A stretch of 64,000 bases of DNA from Limnospira fusiformis SAG 85.79. Lineage in GTDB: Bacteria; Cyanobacteriota; Cyanobacteriia; Cyanobacteriales; Microcoleaceae. The notes below the pieces were generated by a model that was given only the letters and a program-made list of their open reading frames with translations, was not told where the DNA came from and ran no database searches. A program made the position numbers and the translations under genes. Below, piece by piece: positions 52,199 to 61,052 of this stretch. Every line of letters starts with the position of its first letter. Position 1 is the first letter of the stretch. The stretch lies in NCBI RefSeq assembly GCF_012516315.1, contig NZ_CP051185.1, forward strand, positions 4,593,363 through 4,657,362, written 5' to 3'.

Positions 52199-52498
52199 AT
52201 GAGTCAATTAACAGTTGTCGCGAGAATCAAAGCTAAAGCCGGAGTAGAAGAGACAGTTCATCAGGAGTTACTGAAACTAATTCCGCTGACTTTAGCTGAA
52301 AGTGGATGTCTAAATTATGATTTACATCGGTCGATTGATGATCCGACTTTATTTTTGTTCTATGAGAATTGGGAAAGTCGTTTGTTGTGGGAACAACACA
52401 TGGCGACGGAGCATATTAAAATATTCCGGGAAAATACAGAAGGTTTCATCGAAAAGCTGGATATTGATTTATGGACGCTTGAGGGTAATCTAGGATGA
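52199..52498 (+). CDS. Antibiotic-biosynthesis-monooxygenase (ABM) domain protein
   Basis: 99 aa covering one ABM ferredoxin-like domain: LTVVARIKAKAGVEETVHQE, GCLNYDLHRSIDDPTLFLFY and ENWESRLLWEQHMATEH. Family members such as YgiN oxidise quinols without a cofactor; the substrate here is unknown. Preceded by AAGGAACGC, and its stop overlaps the next start by four bases. Confidence 0.85.
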   Translation: MSQLTVVARIKAKAGVEETVHQELLKLIPLTLAESGCLNYDLHRSIDDPTLFLFYENWESRLLWEQHMATEHIKIFRENTEGFIEKLDIDLWTLEGNLG

Positions 52499-53913
52499 AG
52501 TCGTTTAAATCTGTTTTGACTAGTTGTCTAATTCCAGCCATGGCTTTGCTGACGGGAAATGTCGCGATCGCTCAGACTGTGGAACCGGAGCAGTTGACCA
52601 TTGCTGGCGATCGCACCACCAAACAAGTCCGCCAGCTTTATATTAGAACCGATAGCGCCGTCAGAGATTTACAGGTGCTTCCGTTTGACCTGAATGGAAC
52701 TAATGGGGTATCGGTGTTTCCTGGGGCAGCCATCGCCGCCGGAGAAATACAGCCAATTCTGGGTAAGGCGAATGAGGTGATTGTACCCGTGGTGTTTAAT
52801 TTACGCCAGGCGACTGATAGTGGTGAATTTGTGGGAACTGTGCGCCTAAGTTACTCTGGGGGACAACTGGCGATTCCGGTGACGTTAAGGGTTAAGGATC
52901 ATTGGTTTTGTCCGCTGGTAGTGCTGGTATTTTGGACAGTATTAGGAATTCGCATCTCTGCTTATCGCGACCAAGGACGACCGAGAGATCAGATTTTGAT
53001 GCGGGTAGGACAGGTTTATGCTCAGATGGAGGAAGACCCAGATCTTGAGAAGGCTAAGGCGTTTAAGGGTCGCATCAATGCTTATTTAGTTGAAGTGAAG
53101 ATGGAACTTCAGGGGGAACGCTGGGAAGAGGCGGCGCTGATTATTGATCGCGCTGAGGGAACTTGGCGACGTTGGGTGATGGGAAGGTCTGATTGGTTGG
53201 CGCAGTTTGAATATAGCGATCGCCTCAAGCAGAAGTTAGAGGATTATGATGCTACCACTACCTTTGTGCGGATGGTAAGCTGGGATTTGGATGATGCTCT
53301 GAACACTGCGCCAGAGTTGGAAGGTCCGCCTCAATTGCGCGAGGAGTTGGAGGCGATCGCCAAACAAATTAACAGTTATGTTCCTTTAAAAAAGGATATT
53401 GAGGAACTACAAAAACGCCTCCCCGTTGAAACTGATGATGACCAAAAGCCTCTGGCTGCAATTATTCGCCAACTCGATCGCCAGGTTGACCGTTTAACCC
53501 CCATGGAGTTACAAAAAGATGAAACTGTCGGTCGTCAGTTAGAACAGCTAAAGGTTCAGGTAGATGAACAAAGTCTGGCTGAGTCGGATTTGGTTTCTAA
53601 AGGATTAGGATTTATGTCCGGTTTGTCTTTAGTGGCTCTCCCTCCGGCTACTCATTACAACGCTTCTTGGAGTGAACAAGCAGCCTCGGCTAATTTGCGG
53701 ATTAGAGCCTTTGTTTGGAGGAGTTATCTGTTGGCGGTGGTGCTATTAGCCGTAGCCGGTTTTACTGAGTTATATGTGGCAAATTCGACTTTTGGCGCTA
53801 ACCGTTCTCGGGACTATTTTACTCTCATGGCTTGGGGTATTGGGGCGGAAGCGACCAGGGATGCGATCGCTAAGGTGGTTCAGAGTTGGGGTTTACCCGG
53901 CTTGAAGTCTTAG
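52495..53913 (+). CDS. Exported/membrane protein with helical middle region
   Basis: 472 aa, with ATGA overlap to the ABM gene. A signal peptide (about 1-26, ending NVAIAQT) is followed by a beta-rich domain (about 30-135) carrying GVSVFPGAAIAAGEIQPI. A membrane segment lies at about 138-155 (FCPLVVLVFWTVLGI), then a long helical, charged region (about 160-370) with coiled-coil character. A second membrane segment is near 412-432 (LLAVVLLAVAGFTELYV). No family recognised. The middle may bind a partner in the cytosol. Coupling to the ABM gene suggests co-expression. Confidence 0.78.
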   Translation: MKSFKSVLTSCLIPAMALLTGNVAIAQTVEPEQLTIAGDRTTKQVRQLYIRTDSAVRDLQVLPFDLNGTNGVSVFPGAAIAAGEIQPILGKANEVIVPVVFNLRQATDSGEFVGTVRLSYSGGQLAIPVTLRVKDHWFCPLVVLVFWTVLGIRISAYRDQGRPRDQILMRVGQVYAQMEEDPDLEKAKAFKGRINAYLVEVKMELQGERWEEAALIIDRAEGTWRRWVMGRSDWLAQFEYSDRLKQKLEDYDATTTFVRMVSWDLDDALNTAPELEGPPQLREELEAIAKQINSYVPLKKDIEELQKRLPVETDDDQKPLAAIIRQLDRQVDRLTPMELQKDETVGRQLEQLKVQVDEQSLAESDLVSKGLGFMSGLSLVALPPATHYNASWSEQAASANLRIRAFVWRSYLLAVVLLAVAGFTELYVANSTFGANRSRDYFTLMAWGIGAEATRDAIAKVVQSWGLPGLKS

Positions 53914-53924
53914 GAGTTACTCAA

Positions 53925-55367
53925 TTAGTGGATCCGGGGCAATTTTATCGTAAATTTAGTACCTTCATTTAGGGTACTAACTACGCTAATTTCGCCCCCA
54001 TGAGCCTCGACAATTTGTTGGGCGATCGCTAATCCTAATCCCCAACCACCGGAGGCTTTAGAACGCTTTAAATCCGCTCGATAAAATCGCTCAAACACAT
54101 GAGGCAATGCTTCAGCCGCAATGCCAATTCCAGAGTCTTCCACCTCGAATATAGCATATTTTTCCGAGTTGTGCAAGTTAATTTTAATAATTCCTCCGGG
54201 GGGAGTGTAGCGACTAGCGTTGCTGAGAAGGTTGGTGATCACTTGTTTTAATAAACTGCGATCGGCTAATACCCAAACGGGGGTTAATGGTAGGTTAGTT
54301 ATTAATTCTAATGATTGACTTTTGAGGGGAGTTATCCACTCCGAGGCGATCGCCAATAGCAGTTGATTGACATTGACTTTTTGTATAGACTCAGGTGCTA
54401 GTAAGCCTTCATGTCTGGCGAGAAATAATAAATCACTGACCAAGGAACTCATCTGTTTAGTAGTTTTGACGATGTTTTCCAGTCTTCGATGTAACGATGG
54501 GGGGATTTCATCCACATCATCTAATTCTAGTAAAGCCACCTGAGCATTACTTAATACAGCCGCTAAAGGCGCTCTTAATTCATGGGAAGCATTAGCGGTA
54601 AATCTTTGCAGTTGGTCACAAACATTTTCCAAACGTTGATTGGTGACTTTCAAGTTAATTTGTCTCTGGGATAATTCTTGTTCTAAGTTAGAGAAAAGAT
54701 GAATAGTAAACATAGTAGCGATCGCACTAATTACCCCAGAAAAACATAAGAAAATCCAGGTTAATTGTCGATACTCATCTCGATGTTGGATGCGTTCAAT
54801 TAGTAGCTTTTCTTCATTTTCGGCAAAGATATCAATAGCTTGACGTGCTTGATTCATCGTTTCTTGACCTTTAGCCAGCCAATCATATAAAGACTCGATG
54901 GGTACTAAAGTATCATTTTGTCCGCGAATCCTAATTAATTCTTGTTGGAGGATTATTTTTTTTTCAAAATTAGCGATATTTTCATCAATATAAAACCTGA
55001 CATCTTCCAAGTATTCTGATTGTTCAGCATTGTCTTGTACCAAATCTTGTAAAGTGTCTAAAACTCGAGGAATTCTACTTTTAGCATGATGATAACGCTC
55101 TAAAAACTCATCTCGTTGAGTCAGTCCATATCCCCTCACCCCCGTTTCCGCATCAAGTAAAGCGTTTAAAAGTTGTTTAGTTTCTAATCTAACATTCTGG
55201 GTATGTTGTACCCAAGCCTCGTCTTCAATTATGTGAAATTTCAACCAAGAAAAGGCTAACAATACTATCAATAAACAACTCACGGGAATCGCAATAATTG
55301 CTGTACCCCGCCATTTAATCGGTAGAGATAGCCAACGTTTTTGGAGTTTGGTAATTAGCTTAACCAT
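53925..55367 (-). CDS. Sensor histidine kinase with CHASE3 domain
   Basis: 480 aa. A first membrane segment (about 22-42) is followed by a CHASE3 extracytoplasmic sensor (about 45-190; [20 protein letters not shown]) and a second membrane segment (about 203-223). The HisKA dimer domain has the phospho-acceptor H262 in [12 protein letters not shown]. The ATPase domain shows [17 protein letters not shown] (N box) and [11 protein letters not shown] (G1), then [19 protein letters not shown]. No HAMP is obvious. It lies 20 bp downstream of its regulator, so the pair is an operon. The signal is unknown. Confidence 0.93.
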
Positions 55368-55387
55368 AGATATATATTATTTAATCT

Positions 55388-56065
55388 TTAATCTGTCCGA
55401 GGCTCGAGACGATAACCCATACCATAAACCGTTTCAATCCAACTGTCAATTTCTATGGCTTTCAGGGTTTTACGCAGTCGTTTAACTCTCGCTACTACCG
55501 CATTGCTTTCCGGTTCTTCTCCCCATTCCCAGAGTGCTTGTTCTATTTGATTATGAGTGAGAACTTGGTGGGGGTGACGCATCATATATTCTAAGAGTTG
55601 AAAGTCGCGACTTTTCAGCTTTAAGCTATCATTCCCCCATGTTAAAATCATAGTATCGAGATTTAATGATAATCCTTTGACTGCTAATATATCCCCCACC
55701 CAAAGAGGCGATCGCCTTCTTAAAGCTCTAATTCTAGCTAACAATTCTTGTAGGTCTACTGGTTTAACTAAATAATCATCTGCGCCAGCGTCTAGTCCCA
55801 TAACTTTATCAGCCGTCGTATCTTTAGCTGTCAGCATTAACACTGGTGATGTTTTCCCCATTTGGCGATAATTTTTACATAAAATAATACCATCTTCTCC
55901 CGGTAACATCCAATCTAAAATCAACAGATCATACTCGGTTTCATTCATTAACCACAAGGCGGTTGTGCCATCTTCTACCCCATCAACAATATGTCCATAA
56001 CGAGTTAAAGCTGCATGAATTGGCTCCCGTTGTTCTGGATCGTCTTCTACCAATAAAATCCGCAT
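55388..56065 (-). CDS. OmpR/PhoB-type response regulator
   Basis: 225 aa. Receiver domain with acidic pair ED at 7-8, phospho-acceptor D51 in LILDWMLPGEDG and K102 in YLVKPVDLQ. The winged-helix DNA-binding domain (about 125-222) ends VARVKRLRKTLKAIEIDSWI and TVYGMGYRLEPR. It is the first gene of a two-gene operon with the CHASE3 kinase. Its targets may include the nearby exported proteins, but no shared operator was seen. Confidence 0.93.
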   Translation of the reverse strand: MRILLVEDDPEQREPIHAALTRYGHIVDGVEDGTTALWLMNETEYDLLILDWMLPGEDGIILCKNYRQMGKTSPVLMLTAKDTTADKVMGLDAGADDYLVKPVDLQELLARIRALRRRSPLWVGDILAVKGLSLNLDTMILTWGNDSLKLKSRDFQLLEYMMRHPHQVLTHNQIEQALWEWGEEPESNAVVARVKRLRKTLKAIEIDSWIETVYGMGYRLEPRTD

Positions 56066-56197: not shown

Positions 56198-56587
56198 TTA
56201 TCGAGAGCTTTGGGAAGCAGAATTCCGTCTTCTGTAACCACCTGACCAAGGTGGGGGACCCTGTGGATCGCGAATAAAAATCACTTCGCCATTACTGCGA
56301 GTAATAGTGAAAGCATCAAAGTCATAGTCATCATATTTACCTGTGACTGTGACCTGTTCTCCGGGTTGTAAATTCAGTTGATGATGGCGCATGGGTCCAG
56401 CATCAACAATAATTTGTCCAGTTCCGTCGTCTAAGATAAAGTCATTACCTACAACACTGCGAATTGTACCAGATATAGTCACTCCTGAATGACGCTGCAA
56501 ATCTTGAATAGAAACTTGTGCATTCACGGCTGGAACCCCTATGGTTAACAGTGCAGAAGTTAGTAAGGCTGTAATGGTTGGTTTCAT
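56198..56587 (-). CDS. Exported OB-fold (BOF) protein with basic tail
   Basis: 129 aa with a signal peptide (about 1-23, ending PAVNAQ). The rest is one bacterial OB-fold domain: VTISGTIRSVVGNDFILDDG and PGEQVTVTGKYDDYDFDAF. The YDDYDFDAFTITR motif is the same as in the repeats of the gene at 59727. The tail is GYRRRNSASQSSR, basic like those of the nearby small exported proteins. Periplasmic stress proteins of the YgiW/YdeI type have this fold; the ligand is unknown. Confidence 0.85.
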   Translation of the reverse strand: MKPTITALLTSALLTIGVPAVNAQVSIQDLQRHSGVTISGTIRSVVGNDFILDDGTGQIIVDAGPMRHHQLNLQPGEQVTVTGKYDDYDFDAFTITRSNGEVIFIRDPQGPPPWSGGYRRRNSASQSSR

Positions 56588-56732: not shown

Positions 56733-57596
56733 ATGGCTAAAATTGCTAAAATTGGCTCGGTTTTGGGAGTTGATGAACAAGGCTTTATTATTCGGAAAGC
56801 TAATATTGACAAAATTGTGGAACCTTGGCGATCGCTAGTTGATGAAATTGTCACAGCTTATCTTAATCATTGGTCTGACCAAGTTCATAACATTTATATT
56901 CGCGGGTCTGTCGCTGTAGGACAAGCTATTCCCTTCATTTCTGATGTTGATAGTTTCGCCGTGGTTTCCGGGAATTATCAAGACTGCGATCGCCATTGGT
57001 TTGATGGTTTTAATCAGCACGTTAGACCAAAATATCCCTTCTGTAAGGGAGTCGAATTGTCACCTATTTCAGGCGATCGCTTACGGGATTTTGATGATTA
57101 TGGTTATGGGGGTTTGCGAATGCTAATTGTCACTCAAGCCGCCTGTGTTTACGGACAAGATATCTCCCCAGAATTGCCAAAGTTTAAGCCTGATATCGAT
57201 GCGGTTAGTCATGCTTTTGATTTGTCCGAAGATATCCAGGAAGTCAGTTTTGACCTATTATATACAACCCCTCAAAAGCCACCTAATGAACAAACTGCTT
57301 ATGTTCATAAACTCGGTCAGTGGATTATGAAAAGGATCCTCCGGTCTGGCTTAGAAATTGTCATGGAACGTCATCAATGTTATACCCGTGATTTATATCC
57401 TTGTTATCAGATTTTTTCCGAATATTATCCCGCACAAAAAACACTCATGTATCAAGCCTTAAATTGGTCAATTAATCCCCTTGATTCACCCCAGGAAATT
57501 GTCGATTTTTTGGCAACTTTTGGTTCTTGGTTGGTCGCCGAAATTGATCACGTTTATCCTCCCCAAATTTCCGATGATTTCCTCTTGACAAACTAG
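56733..57596 (+). CDS. Nucleotidyltransferase-fold protein
   Basis: 287 aa. YIRGSVAVGQAIPFISDVDS (56-74) is the pol-beta/NTase pattern GS...DxD, with D71 and D73 as metal ligands. The remaining 200 residues are helical and of no recognised family. It resembles stand-alone nucleotidyltransferases acting on small molecules or RNA; the substrate is unknown. The stop codon lies inside the promoter of cassette copy 10. Confidence 0.8.
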   Translation: MAKIAKIGSVLGVDEQGFIIRKANIDKIVEPWRSLVDEIVTAYLNHWSDQVHNIYIRGSVAVGQAIPFISDVDSFAVVSGNYQDCDRHWFDGFNQHVRPKYPFCKGVELSPISGDRLRDFDDYGYGGLRMLIVTQAACVYGQDISPELPKFKPDIDAVSHAFDLSEDIQEVSFDLLYTTPQKPPNEQTAYVHKLGQWIMKRILRSGLEIVMERHQCYTRDLYPCYQIFSEYYPAQKTLMYQALNWSINPLDSPQEIVDFLATFGSWLVAEIDHVYPPQISDDFLLTN

Positions 57597-58945: not shown

Positions 58946-59209
58946 TTAAGACCATCTGCGACGACGGTTACGGGAAGCACTACCCCTATCATTATCATAG
59001 TCATAATCGACATCATTATCCCGATCTGAATCAGCTAGTAAATTAGCATCCTCCCCAGGTAGTAGGATATTCGGTAGGTCTTCAATGTCTATCTGAATCC
59101 GATTTACGAGGGTTGATGATGGGGAATTTATCGCAGCTTGACCAGCTTCAGCAAAACCGATAATAGCGGCAAAGGATAACAGGGTCGCAATTTTCCAGGA
59201 AGGTTTCAT
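58946..59209 (-). CDS. Small exported protein with Asp/Tyr-Arg tail, paralogue A
   Basis: 87 aa. A signal peptide (MKPSWKIATLLSFAAIIGFA, cleaved near AGQA) is followed by SSTLVNRIQIDIEDLPNIL, an acidic stretch with DYDYDND and an arginine-rich end (NRRRRWS). The signal-peptide region is nearly identical in DNA to the next gene, and the same AGGAG leader precedes the ATG. No known family. Repeated Asp suggests cation or polymer binding, which is only a guess. Confidence 0.72.
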   Translation of the reverse strand: MKPSWKIATLLSFAAIIGFAEAGQAAINSPSSTLVNRIQIDIEDLPNILLPGEDANLLADSDRDNDVDYDYDNDRGSASRNRRRRWS

Positions 59210-59314
59210 CGAAGCATCTCCTAAAGAGTTAAATTTGAGTATTGAGATGGTAATTTATGATTACCATAAGTATAGCCTAAATTTACAAATTTATCAATGT
59301 TTATCAAGTGGTGA

Positions 59315-59638
59315 CTATCTTTGACGACGACCAGCATTAGGACGGTTAACACGGCGGGGAGTTTGACCATTAAAACGACCAGCATTAGGACGACGAACTC
59401 GGCGGGAATTCCGACCTCGATCATTGTCATAATTAAAATCGCGATCGCTATTATTAAAACGATTTGCTAGTAAATTAGCATCCTCCCTAGGTAAGATATT
59501 GGGTAGGTCTTCAATGTCTATCTCAATCCGATTTACGAGGGTTGGTGATGGGGGATTTATCGCAGCTTGACCAGCTTCAGCAAAACCGATAATAGCAGCA
59601 AAGGATAACAGGGTCGCAATTTTCCAGGAAGGTTTCAT
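59315..59638 (-). CDS. Small exported protein with Asp/Tyr-Arg tail, paralogue B
   Basis: 107 aa from ATG 59638 (AGGAG eight bases upstream). The same signal peptide and PTLVNRIEIDIEDLPNIL motif as paralogue A are followed by FNYDNDRG and a longer arginine-rich end with two RRxNRPNAG-like units (RRPNAGRFNGQ, NRPNAGRRQR). The pair arose by tandem duplication with a diverging tail. Confidence 0.72.
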   Translation of the reverse strand: MKPSWKIATLLSFAAIIGFAEAGQAAINPPSPTLVNRIEIDIEDLPNILPREDANLLANRFNNSDRDFNYDNDRGRNSRRVRRPNAGRFNGQTPRRVNRPNAGRRQR

Positions 59639-59726
59639 CGAAGGATCTCCTAAATTAATTAAATCAATGTTTTTTGTGTTCAATGAAAAACCGGGATTGG
59701 TTTATAGATGAGAGTGGCTGAAACTA

Positions 59727-61052
59727 TTAGTTAAAACGACGAGATCTACCGTGGTCATAGTCAAAATCAGGCCGATCATAATCATAATCGCGATCGCCTA
59801 CTGTTGGGGATGTCCTATTACCCGGATTTAAGGGGGGGTTAGGAATGTTATTAATTGGCGCAAATCCGGGATTATTAATATCAGTAATTTCCATCTGAAT
59901 ACGATTGGATAATACCGGAGTTACGGGAGGAATAGAAGCCGGTGGAAAAGCCATCATTGGCTGTAATGGTAGAACCGCCGAACCGTCCAGACGGGTCAAA
60001 CTGTAAGCATCAAAATCATAGTCATCAAAATTGCCAACAATGGTTAATATTTCTCCCGGAATTACACTTACCATTCCTTCCCCTTGAGGAATAGCATCTA
60101 CCAAAATCGGTCCGATATCACTTTGGAAGAAAAAGCTATCCGGTTCAGTTTGGCTAATTACTGTACCTGAGAGAGTCAGAAATTCTGGATTTACGGGAGG
60201 AATAGAAGCCGGTGGAAAAGCCATCATTGGCTGTAATGGCACAACCGCCGAACCGTCCAGACGGGTCAAACTGTAAGCATCAAAATCATAGTCATCAAAA
60301 TTGCCAACAATGGTTAATATTTCTCCCGGAATTACACTTACCATTCCTTCCCCTTGAGGAATAGCATCTACTAAAATCGGTCCGATATCACTTTGGAAGA
60401 AAAAGCTATCCGGTTCAGTTTGGCTAATTACTGTACCTGAGAGAGTCAGAAATTCTGGAGTTACGGGAGGAATAGAAGCCGGTGGAAAAGCCATCATTGG
60501 CTGTAATGGTAGAACCGCCGAACCGTCCAGACGGGTCAAACTGTAAGCATCAAAATCATAGTCATCAAAATTGCCAACAATGGTTAATATTTCTCCCGGA
60601 ATTACACTTACTATTCCTTCCCCTTGAGGAATAGCATCTACCAAAATCAGTCCGATATCACTTTGGAAGAAAAAGCTATCCGGTTCAGTTTGGCTAATTA
60701 CTGTACCTGAGAGAGTAGTTAATCCGACACCTGTTAAAGGGTCTATATTAGGTGGTACAGTCATGGGGGGAATGTTAGATAAACCTAACACCGTAGACCC
60801 ATCAGGACGGATAATATTGTTAGTGTCGATTTCGCGACCATTCCATTCTCCTACTTGGAGAGTGATGATTTCTCCAGGCATTAAACCAAGTTGCCATGCG
60901 GGGAGAGGGGAGACATCAACAATGACTTCTGAACCGTTGATAGGATAGAATAGAAAGTCATCGCCGTTATCAATTAGGCTACCGACAGTCCCAGAAACCA
61001 TCGCACCAGGAATAAAGTTGTGATCAAGGGGGAATAACTCGCTAAAAGCCAT
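59727..61052 (-). CDS. Multi-OB-fold protein with Asp/Tyr-Arg tail
   Basis: 441 aa from ATG 61052; the longer frame begins at TTG. One diverged OB-fold domain (about 15-95) is followed by three almost identical 90-residue OB-fold units, each with SGTVISQTEPDSFFFQSDIG and GNFDDYDFDAYSLTRLDGSA, spaced by PPASIPPV linkers. The C-terminus reads SNRIQMEITDI and then RDYDYDRPDFDYDHGRSRR, the same tail type as the two genes before it. No signal peptide is visible in this reading. Function unknown; a polymeric, multi-binding-site protein is likely. Confidence 0.82.
   Translation of the reverse strand: MAFSELFPLDHNFIPGAMVSGTVGSLIDNGDDFLFYPINGSEVIVDVSPLPAWQLGLMPGEIITLQVGEWNGREIDTNNIIRPDGSTVLGLSNIPPMTVPPNIDPLTGVGLTTLSGTVISQTEPDSFFFQSDIGLILVDAIPQGEGIVSVIPGEILTIVGNFDDYDFDAYSLTRLDGSAVLPLQPMMAFPPASIPPVTPEFLTLSGTVISQTEPDSFFFQSDIGPILVDAIPQGEGMVSVIPGEILTIVGNFDDYDFDAYSLTRLDGSAVVPLQPMMAFPPASIPPVNPEFLTLSGTVISQTEPDSFFFQSDIGPILVDAIPQGEGMVSVIPGEILTIVGNFDDYDFDAYSLTRLDGSAVLPLQPMMAFPPASIPPVTPVLSNRIQMEITDINNPGFAPINNIPNPPLNPGNRTSPTVGDRDYDYDRPDFDYDHGRSRRFN
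59938..60720. repeat. Three near-identical 270-bp units inside the OB-fold gene
   Basis: The CTTTGGAAGAAAAAGCTATC segment recurs at 60121, 60391 and 60661, exactly 270 bp (90 codons) apart. Only a few bases differ between copies. Confidence 0.9.

Follow-up and report, generated by a model that had tools for sequence, protein, structure and literature searches.

Why do three neighbouring genes, two for small proteins and one for an OB-fold repeat protein, end in the same kind of tail, a short conserved segment followed by an Asp/Tyr-rich stretch and an Arg-rich end? The question arises in a 64,000-nt stretch of DNA (hereafter, the window) that is part of a single-contig, 6.42-Mb cyanobacterial genome, and in which all genes discussed here, with one exception, lie on the minus strand. 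An initial annotation, made from the sequence alone, had reported three open reading frames (ORFs) with this arrangement, and these are indeed present. Small protein A (58946–59209; 87 aa) combines a Sec-like signal peptide with the segment VNRIQIDIEDL, an Asp/Tyr-rich stretch, and an Arg-rich end, i.e., a precursor-like layout, and small protein B (59315–59638; 107 aa, with an ATG start at 59638 and a listed TTG start at 59683) is its tandem paralog: the duplicates are 96% identical across 164 nt, after which the tails diverge. The third, a BOF-repeat protein (59727–61052), sits 88 nt upstream of B and contains four OB-fold repeats (PF04076, 39.2 bits for a cut-off of 25.8), three of which are near-identical 270-nt units. 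The bodies thus differ as had been described, and the exported system that was proposed fits A and B, whose signal peptides were called by eye, as were those of the long-type ORFs below, whereas the BOF-repeat protein has no obvious signal peptide. In transcription order, the BOF-repeat gene (61052–59727) is followed by B (59638–59315), A (59209–58946), and a JmjC gene (58848–57685) that the annotation had not included, and then by a convergent nucleotidyltransferase-like gene (56733–57596, the one gene on the plus strand), a single-BOF gene (56587–56198), an RppA-type regulator (56065–55388), and a CHASE3 kinase (55367–53925). The kinase and regulator had been placed just upstream of the three genes; these being minus-strand, both are in fact downstream in transcription. 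Gene order is identical in a second Arthrospira genome (G001), the sole genome of the same genus in the search set.

The sharing of the tail among the three neighbouring proteins is not a product of chance. Scored against a profile of A, B, and their relatives, the C-terminal tail of the BOF-repeat protein (last 60 residues, 59730–59909, with the precursor-like segment SNRIQMEITDI followed by DYDYD and RSRR) reached 31.9 bits, a value attained by none of 3000 whole-tail shuffles (maximum 13.3), by none of 3000 shuffles of the segment only (maximum 25.5), and by 5 of 3000 shuffles restricted to the Asp/Arg part. This indicates that the segment reflects real homology, while similarity in the Asp/Arg part is to some extent a matter of composition. 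For the tail, comparison of the two Arthrospira genomes gave a dN/dS of about 0.14 for A and 0.20 for B, and values were similar for the short-type peptides described below, which identifies all of these as translated proteins under purifying selection. Profile searches of the whole 6.42-Mb genome returned the tails of A, B, and the BOF-repeat protein and no fourth copy, and a DNA pattern for DYDYDY gave zero matches across the genome. Of the two observations that the annotation had named as counting against its proposal, a lack of further copies in the genome is therefore what was found; a lack of conservation among relatives is not, since ten or more families of the order retain the tail, although this applies less generally to the Arg-rich end than to the Asp-rich part. 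The peptide family had no match among Pfam or NCBIfam models. The single-BOF protein (56198–56587), which carries a signal peptide, had been counted as a fourth member, and it does share the BOF fold, but not the tail: the NRI segment is absent, YDDYDFDA cannot be taken as a common tail, since this strand motif belongs to the BOF domain itself and also occurs in the repeats, and the basic end comes after a separate GPPPW-x-GG motif that is conserved among homologs.

Across relatives, the constant partner of the tail is the JmjC gene. A search with the single-BOF consensus yielded 40 named loci, nearly all cyanobacterial, and in several of them a small protein with the segment adjoins a JmjC homolog. 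Among 293 genomes of the order Cyanobacteriales, the JmjC gene is present in 69, and under one fixed rule a small ORF that encodes the segment followed by an Asp-rich end was detected ≤800 nt upstream of it at 48 of 62 distinct loci, compared to 0/62 on the opposite strand and 5/140 upstream of other genes in the same loci. A stricter motif rule gave 34/62, 0/62, and 5/140, respectively. Since the motif rule was fixed after examples had been seen, these controls weigh more than the absolute rate; at four loci (L179, L184, L188, and L189), a clear peptide lies narrowly outside the rule. Genome-wide profile searches that ignored JmjC gave confident matches to a long peptide type in 26 of the 293 genomes and to a short type in 27. 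JmjC is present in all 53 genomes with a confident peptide, and the 224 genomes that lack JmjC contain no confident peptide, a test that is not fully independent since the profile seeds were largely JmjC-adjacent ORFs, although the search was still genome-wide. Adjacency has its exceptions: nine JmjC homologs have no recognised peptide, in one genome (G175), 16 kb separate a convincing precursor from the JmjC gene, contig ends break the adjacency in another (G280), and at one locus a BOF gene intervenes between the two. In a tree of the JmjC proteins, the long and short types are strongly clustered. Overall, the common tail of the three neighbouring genes marks them as members of a family of small Asp-rich peptides, widespread but unnamed, whose genes lie beside one for a JmjC-type oxygenase. 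Several matches were discarded: a profile match in G133 lacks the segment and has no JmjC gene nearby, a weak tail match in G038 is a chance one, antisense inside a WELGVGS simple repeat, and reading frames indicated low-complexity chance for weak A1 profile matches in G098, G178, G041, G156, G088, and G294, with G242 the sole real one among the weak matches to this profile.

The genomic distribution also bears on what the tail does. The initial annotation had suggested a signal for sorting, binding, or co-assembly, and the notion of a common partner stands. If the tail brought distinct exported proteins to a single site or partner, its occurrence on both an OB-fold repeat protein and two small proteins would be readily understood; such a tag would, however, be expected on many proteins distant from any one enzyme gene, whereas across the 293 genomes the tail profile matches almost exclusively JmjC-adjacent small ORFs, usually one per genome, and the BOF-repeat proteins of relatives have other ends. 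We thus regard a sorting, anchoring, or co-assembly role as improbable, and less likely than a reading in which the tail is a recognition-plus-substrate region for the JmjC enzyme. Most simply, the end of the Arthrospira BOF-repeat protein would then be a third precursor copy fused to it.

The JmjC protein itself has an intact oxygenase site. It matches PF08007 (JmjC_2, 2-oxoglutarate oxygenases) with 97.4 bits for a cut-off of 22, and the HxD...H metal triad (H131, D133, and H205) is invariant in 64 of 64 homologs. Its closest solved relatives, by sequence as well as by fold, are the protein hydroxylases NO66, MINA53, and YcfD, and an alignment to NO66 pairs the triad with the HYD and HSLHLT stretches of that enzyme. 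The predicted C-terminal domain consists of three strands followed by helices, and this order of strands and then a helix is what Bregman et al. require of a RiPP recognition element; the same study reports JmjC-fused recognition elements, with bacterial homologs in RiPP-like contexts (PMC12710340). When the C-terminal domain was excised, sequence searches matched it to no recognition-element family. Since ribosomal oxygenases themselves have a winged-helix domain, the C-terminal domain is best described as consistent with a recognition element. Could the enzyme then be a ribosomal oxygenase, and the upstream small ORFs leader or regulatory peptides of its operon? Ribosomal oxygenases, which share fold and metal-binding triad with it, are its best matches, and the ORFs do precede the JmjC start. 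Yet the gene occurs in merely 69 of the 293 genomes, a patchy distribution that, like the fixed linkage to small peptide genes, sets it apart from NO66, MINA53, and YcfD; long-type ORFs bear signal peptides and repeated cores, one ORF lies 16 kb away and another is separated from JmjC by a BOF gene, and Arthrospira has two ORFs plus a fusion. Taken together, this makes an operon-leader role very improbable.

We instead propose, with a rough probability of 0.62, that the segment and Asp-rich tail form a RiPP-like precursor region and that the adjacent JmjC_2 protein is its putative modifying enzyme. Two features expected of such a pair are seen here, namely linkage to the gene of a modifying enzyme (the 48 of 62 loci and 53 of 53 genomes above) and a short precursor with a conserved N-terminal part and a variable, repeat-like core (the A/B pair and alignments A2 and A3). 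In this scheme, the alternating hydrophobic segment would pair as a strand with the JmjC C-terminal domain, and the Asp-rich core would enter the active site to be hydroxylated, most likely on Asp, although the modified residue could be Arg, Tyr, or Asn instead. Small precursors of the Arthrospira type would be exported through their Sec-like signal peptide, which would place the action of the modified peptide in the periplasm or outside the cell, and the copy fused to the BOF-repeat C-terminus may undergo the same modification.

The two precursor types share a segment of alternating hydrophobic pattern, N/S-R/K-I-x-h-E/D-h-x-E/D-h. Long-type peptides carry a Sec-like signal peptide, segments such as SNRLHVEIEDL, SSVEVEVVNL, and SPLTLTVTDL, and Asp repeats (e.g., QDYDQDYDQDYD, QDLNQDLNQDLNQ, and NYDYSRNYDYSRNYDYS); short-type peptides are about 50 residues long and have no signal peptide (e.g., RASKIQVEVKEI...NVDADGSDVTNE). 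Asp is found in every core of both types, whereas Tyr and Arg are not. In two genomes of one family (loci L177 and L185), the ORFs upstream of second JmjC copies have a leader of the GG type (LEVVEESNVVGG) and long cores of alternating Asp (DVDIEVDVDLNFDANVDVDID), which perhaps represent a third precursor class; that Asp alternates there despite a different leader favours Asp as the target. These peptides may also be considered without their enzyme: secreted unmodified, acidic/basic peptides could use the tail to bind metal ions, BOF proteins, or the cell surface, with JmjC being co-inherited as part of the same regulon but having no action on the peptides. The signal peptides (called by eye), the proximity of BOF and two-component genes at many long-type loci, and the resemblance of Asp-rich DxD patterns to metal-binding loops are all in line with this. 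It does not explain, however, why JmjC is found in all 53 peptide genomes, nor why the short type, with neither signal peptide nor BOF neighbours, retains the segment, the Asp core, and JmjC, and we therefore consider it unlikely.

The genes that follow JmjC differ between the types. At 13 of 16 short-type loci (e.g., L216, L222, and L225), a PF06999 sucrase/ferredoxin-like gene comes after JmjC on the same strand, and its product is a possible redox partner. At long-type loci its place is nearly always taken by a convergent nucleotidyltransferase-like gene, as in the window (56733–57596, plus strand). Sequence searches with this protein gave no firm family, and its structural model (pLDDT 66) matched aminoglycoside and MNT nucleotidyltransferases weakly; given the weak matches and the low confidence of the model, transfer of AMP to the peptide by this protein is possible and serves as a lead only. 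Neither a peptidase nor a dedicated exporter could be recognised in the locus.

JmjC enzymes in RiPP clusters are already known; what lacks a database model is the precursor family. BipG is a JmjC ornithine hydroxylase that acts within a RiPP precursor (PMC12707348), and biphenomycin-type clusters (BipG/BpmG, PbsQ) resemble the present loci in that a JmjC-type 2OG enzyme is encoded with the precursor and modifies its core (PMC12707348, PMC12257519), a modification that is putative here. Unlike these clusters, which involve several enzymes (MNIO, B12 radical SAM, and arginase) and target Orn, the loci described here have JmjC alone as an evident enzyme, along with Asp-rich cores. PF08007 proteins with RiPP recognition elements belong to the same Pfam family and share the predicted C-terminal strand-strand-strand-helix order, but neither a precursor family nor a cyanobacterial type was found in the text describing them (PMC12710340), and the protein studied here has no sequence match to a recognition element. 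A further parallel is provided by bufferin-type metallophore RiPPs (DUF2282), whose precursors have a Sec signal peptide and are modified before export (PMC12710340), as is predicted here, and for which the title of a reference in that article indicates a metal role; no MNIO/DUF692 enzyme was found among the scanned neighbours in the window, however, and there is no Cys-rich core. An earlier description of the precursor family was not found in the literature searched, though a 2025 study of 2OG-dioxygenase RiPP macrocyclisation might overlap. Under this proposal, ORFs without annotation become an enzyme-substrate system that can be tested and that occurs in 53 of the 293 Cyanobacteriales genomes sampled, among them that of the food organism Arthrospira (Spirulina). 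If it is confirmed, the few JmjC-dependent RiPPs would be joined by precursors that are rich in Asp and bear signal peptides, as well as by a fusion at the protein level, and the proposal would provide a recognition motif for mining and a role for orphan BOF/two-component loci.

The BOF and two-component genes themselves constitute a separate module, as many such BOF loci have neither precursor nor JmjC. The single-BOF gene lies near a regulator and/or kinase of this type at about 25 of the 40 named loci, and the BOF and peptide modules occur together at 16 of the 25 long-type loci whose flanks are long enough and at 0 of 13 short-type loci. In the window, the single-BOF protein falls just under the PF04076 cut-off (25.3 vs. 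25.8 bits) and passes NF033674 (35.6 vs. 35). The YgiW/YdeI subfamily model TIGR00156 has a cut-off of 108.15, and the scores obtained, 42.9 and 23.9 bits, stay below it. The OmpR-type regulator (55388–56065) passes the RppA equivalog model (NF041734, 257.9 bits vs. 250), whereas the kinase (53925–55367; PF05227, PF00512, and PF02518) fails that for RppB (197.6 vs. 400) and has a CHASE3 sensor domain instead. This arrangement, in which a protein with one BOF domain and a signal peptide is encoded next to a kinase and an OmpR-type regulator, resembles that of YgiW/VisP/SipA proteins; a two-component system regulates SipA of Vibrio cholerae, which binds cationic antimicrobial peptides (PMC5636140, PMC6370654). 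This precedent makes a role in envelope stress plausible, and the neighbouring BOF/RppA/CHASE3-kinase module probably responds to envelope or metal stress. A more far-reaching version, in which JmjC would convert the Asp-rich arrays of a new exported peptide class into beta-hydroxyaspartate arrays and these would serve at the cell surface to bind metal ions or cationic attackers, with the Arthrospira BOF fusion and the RppA/CHASE3 link as parts of the same system, is possible but doubtful. Differences from the YgiW type include, beyond the failed subfamily cut-off, the GPPPW-x-GG motif and basic end, which are conserved in the single-BOF family and absent from YgiW-type proteins, and the existence of BOF-repeat relatives. 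These relatives also have no signal peptide and end in RTX-like repeats or Asp/Phe-rich stretches. C-termini resembling RTX calcium-binding repeats, on BOF proteins lacking a signal peptide, were observed at L070 (6306–7760), L079 (11462–12412), L104 (2203–3207), L114 (2125–3453), and L115 (3–848), which suggests type I secretion of these proteins. Finally, a predicted membrane protein of 472 aa (52495–53913), with no family above cut-off, adjoins the kinase and occupies the same position in the second Arthrospira genome.
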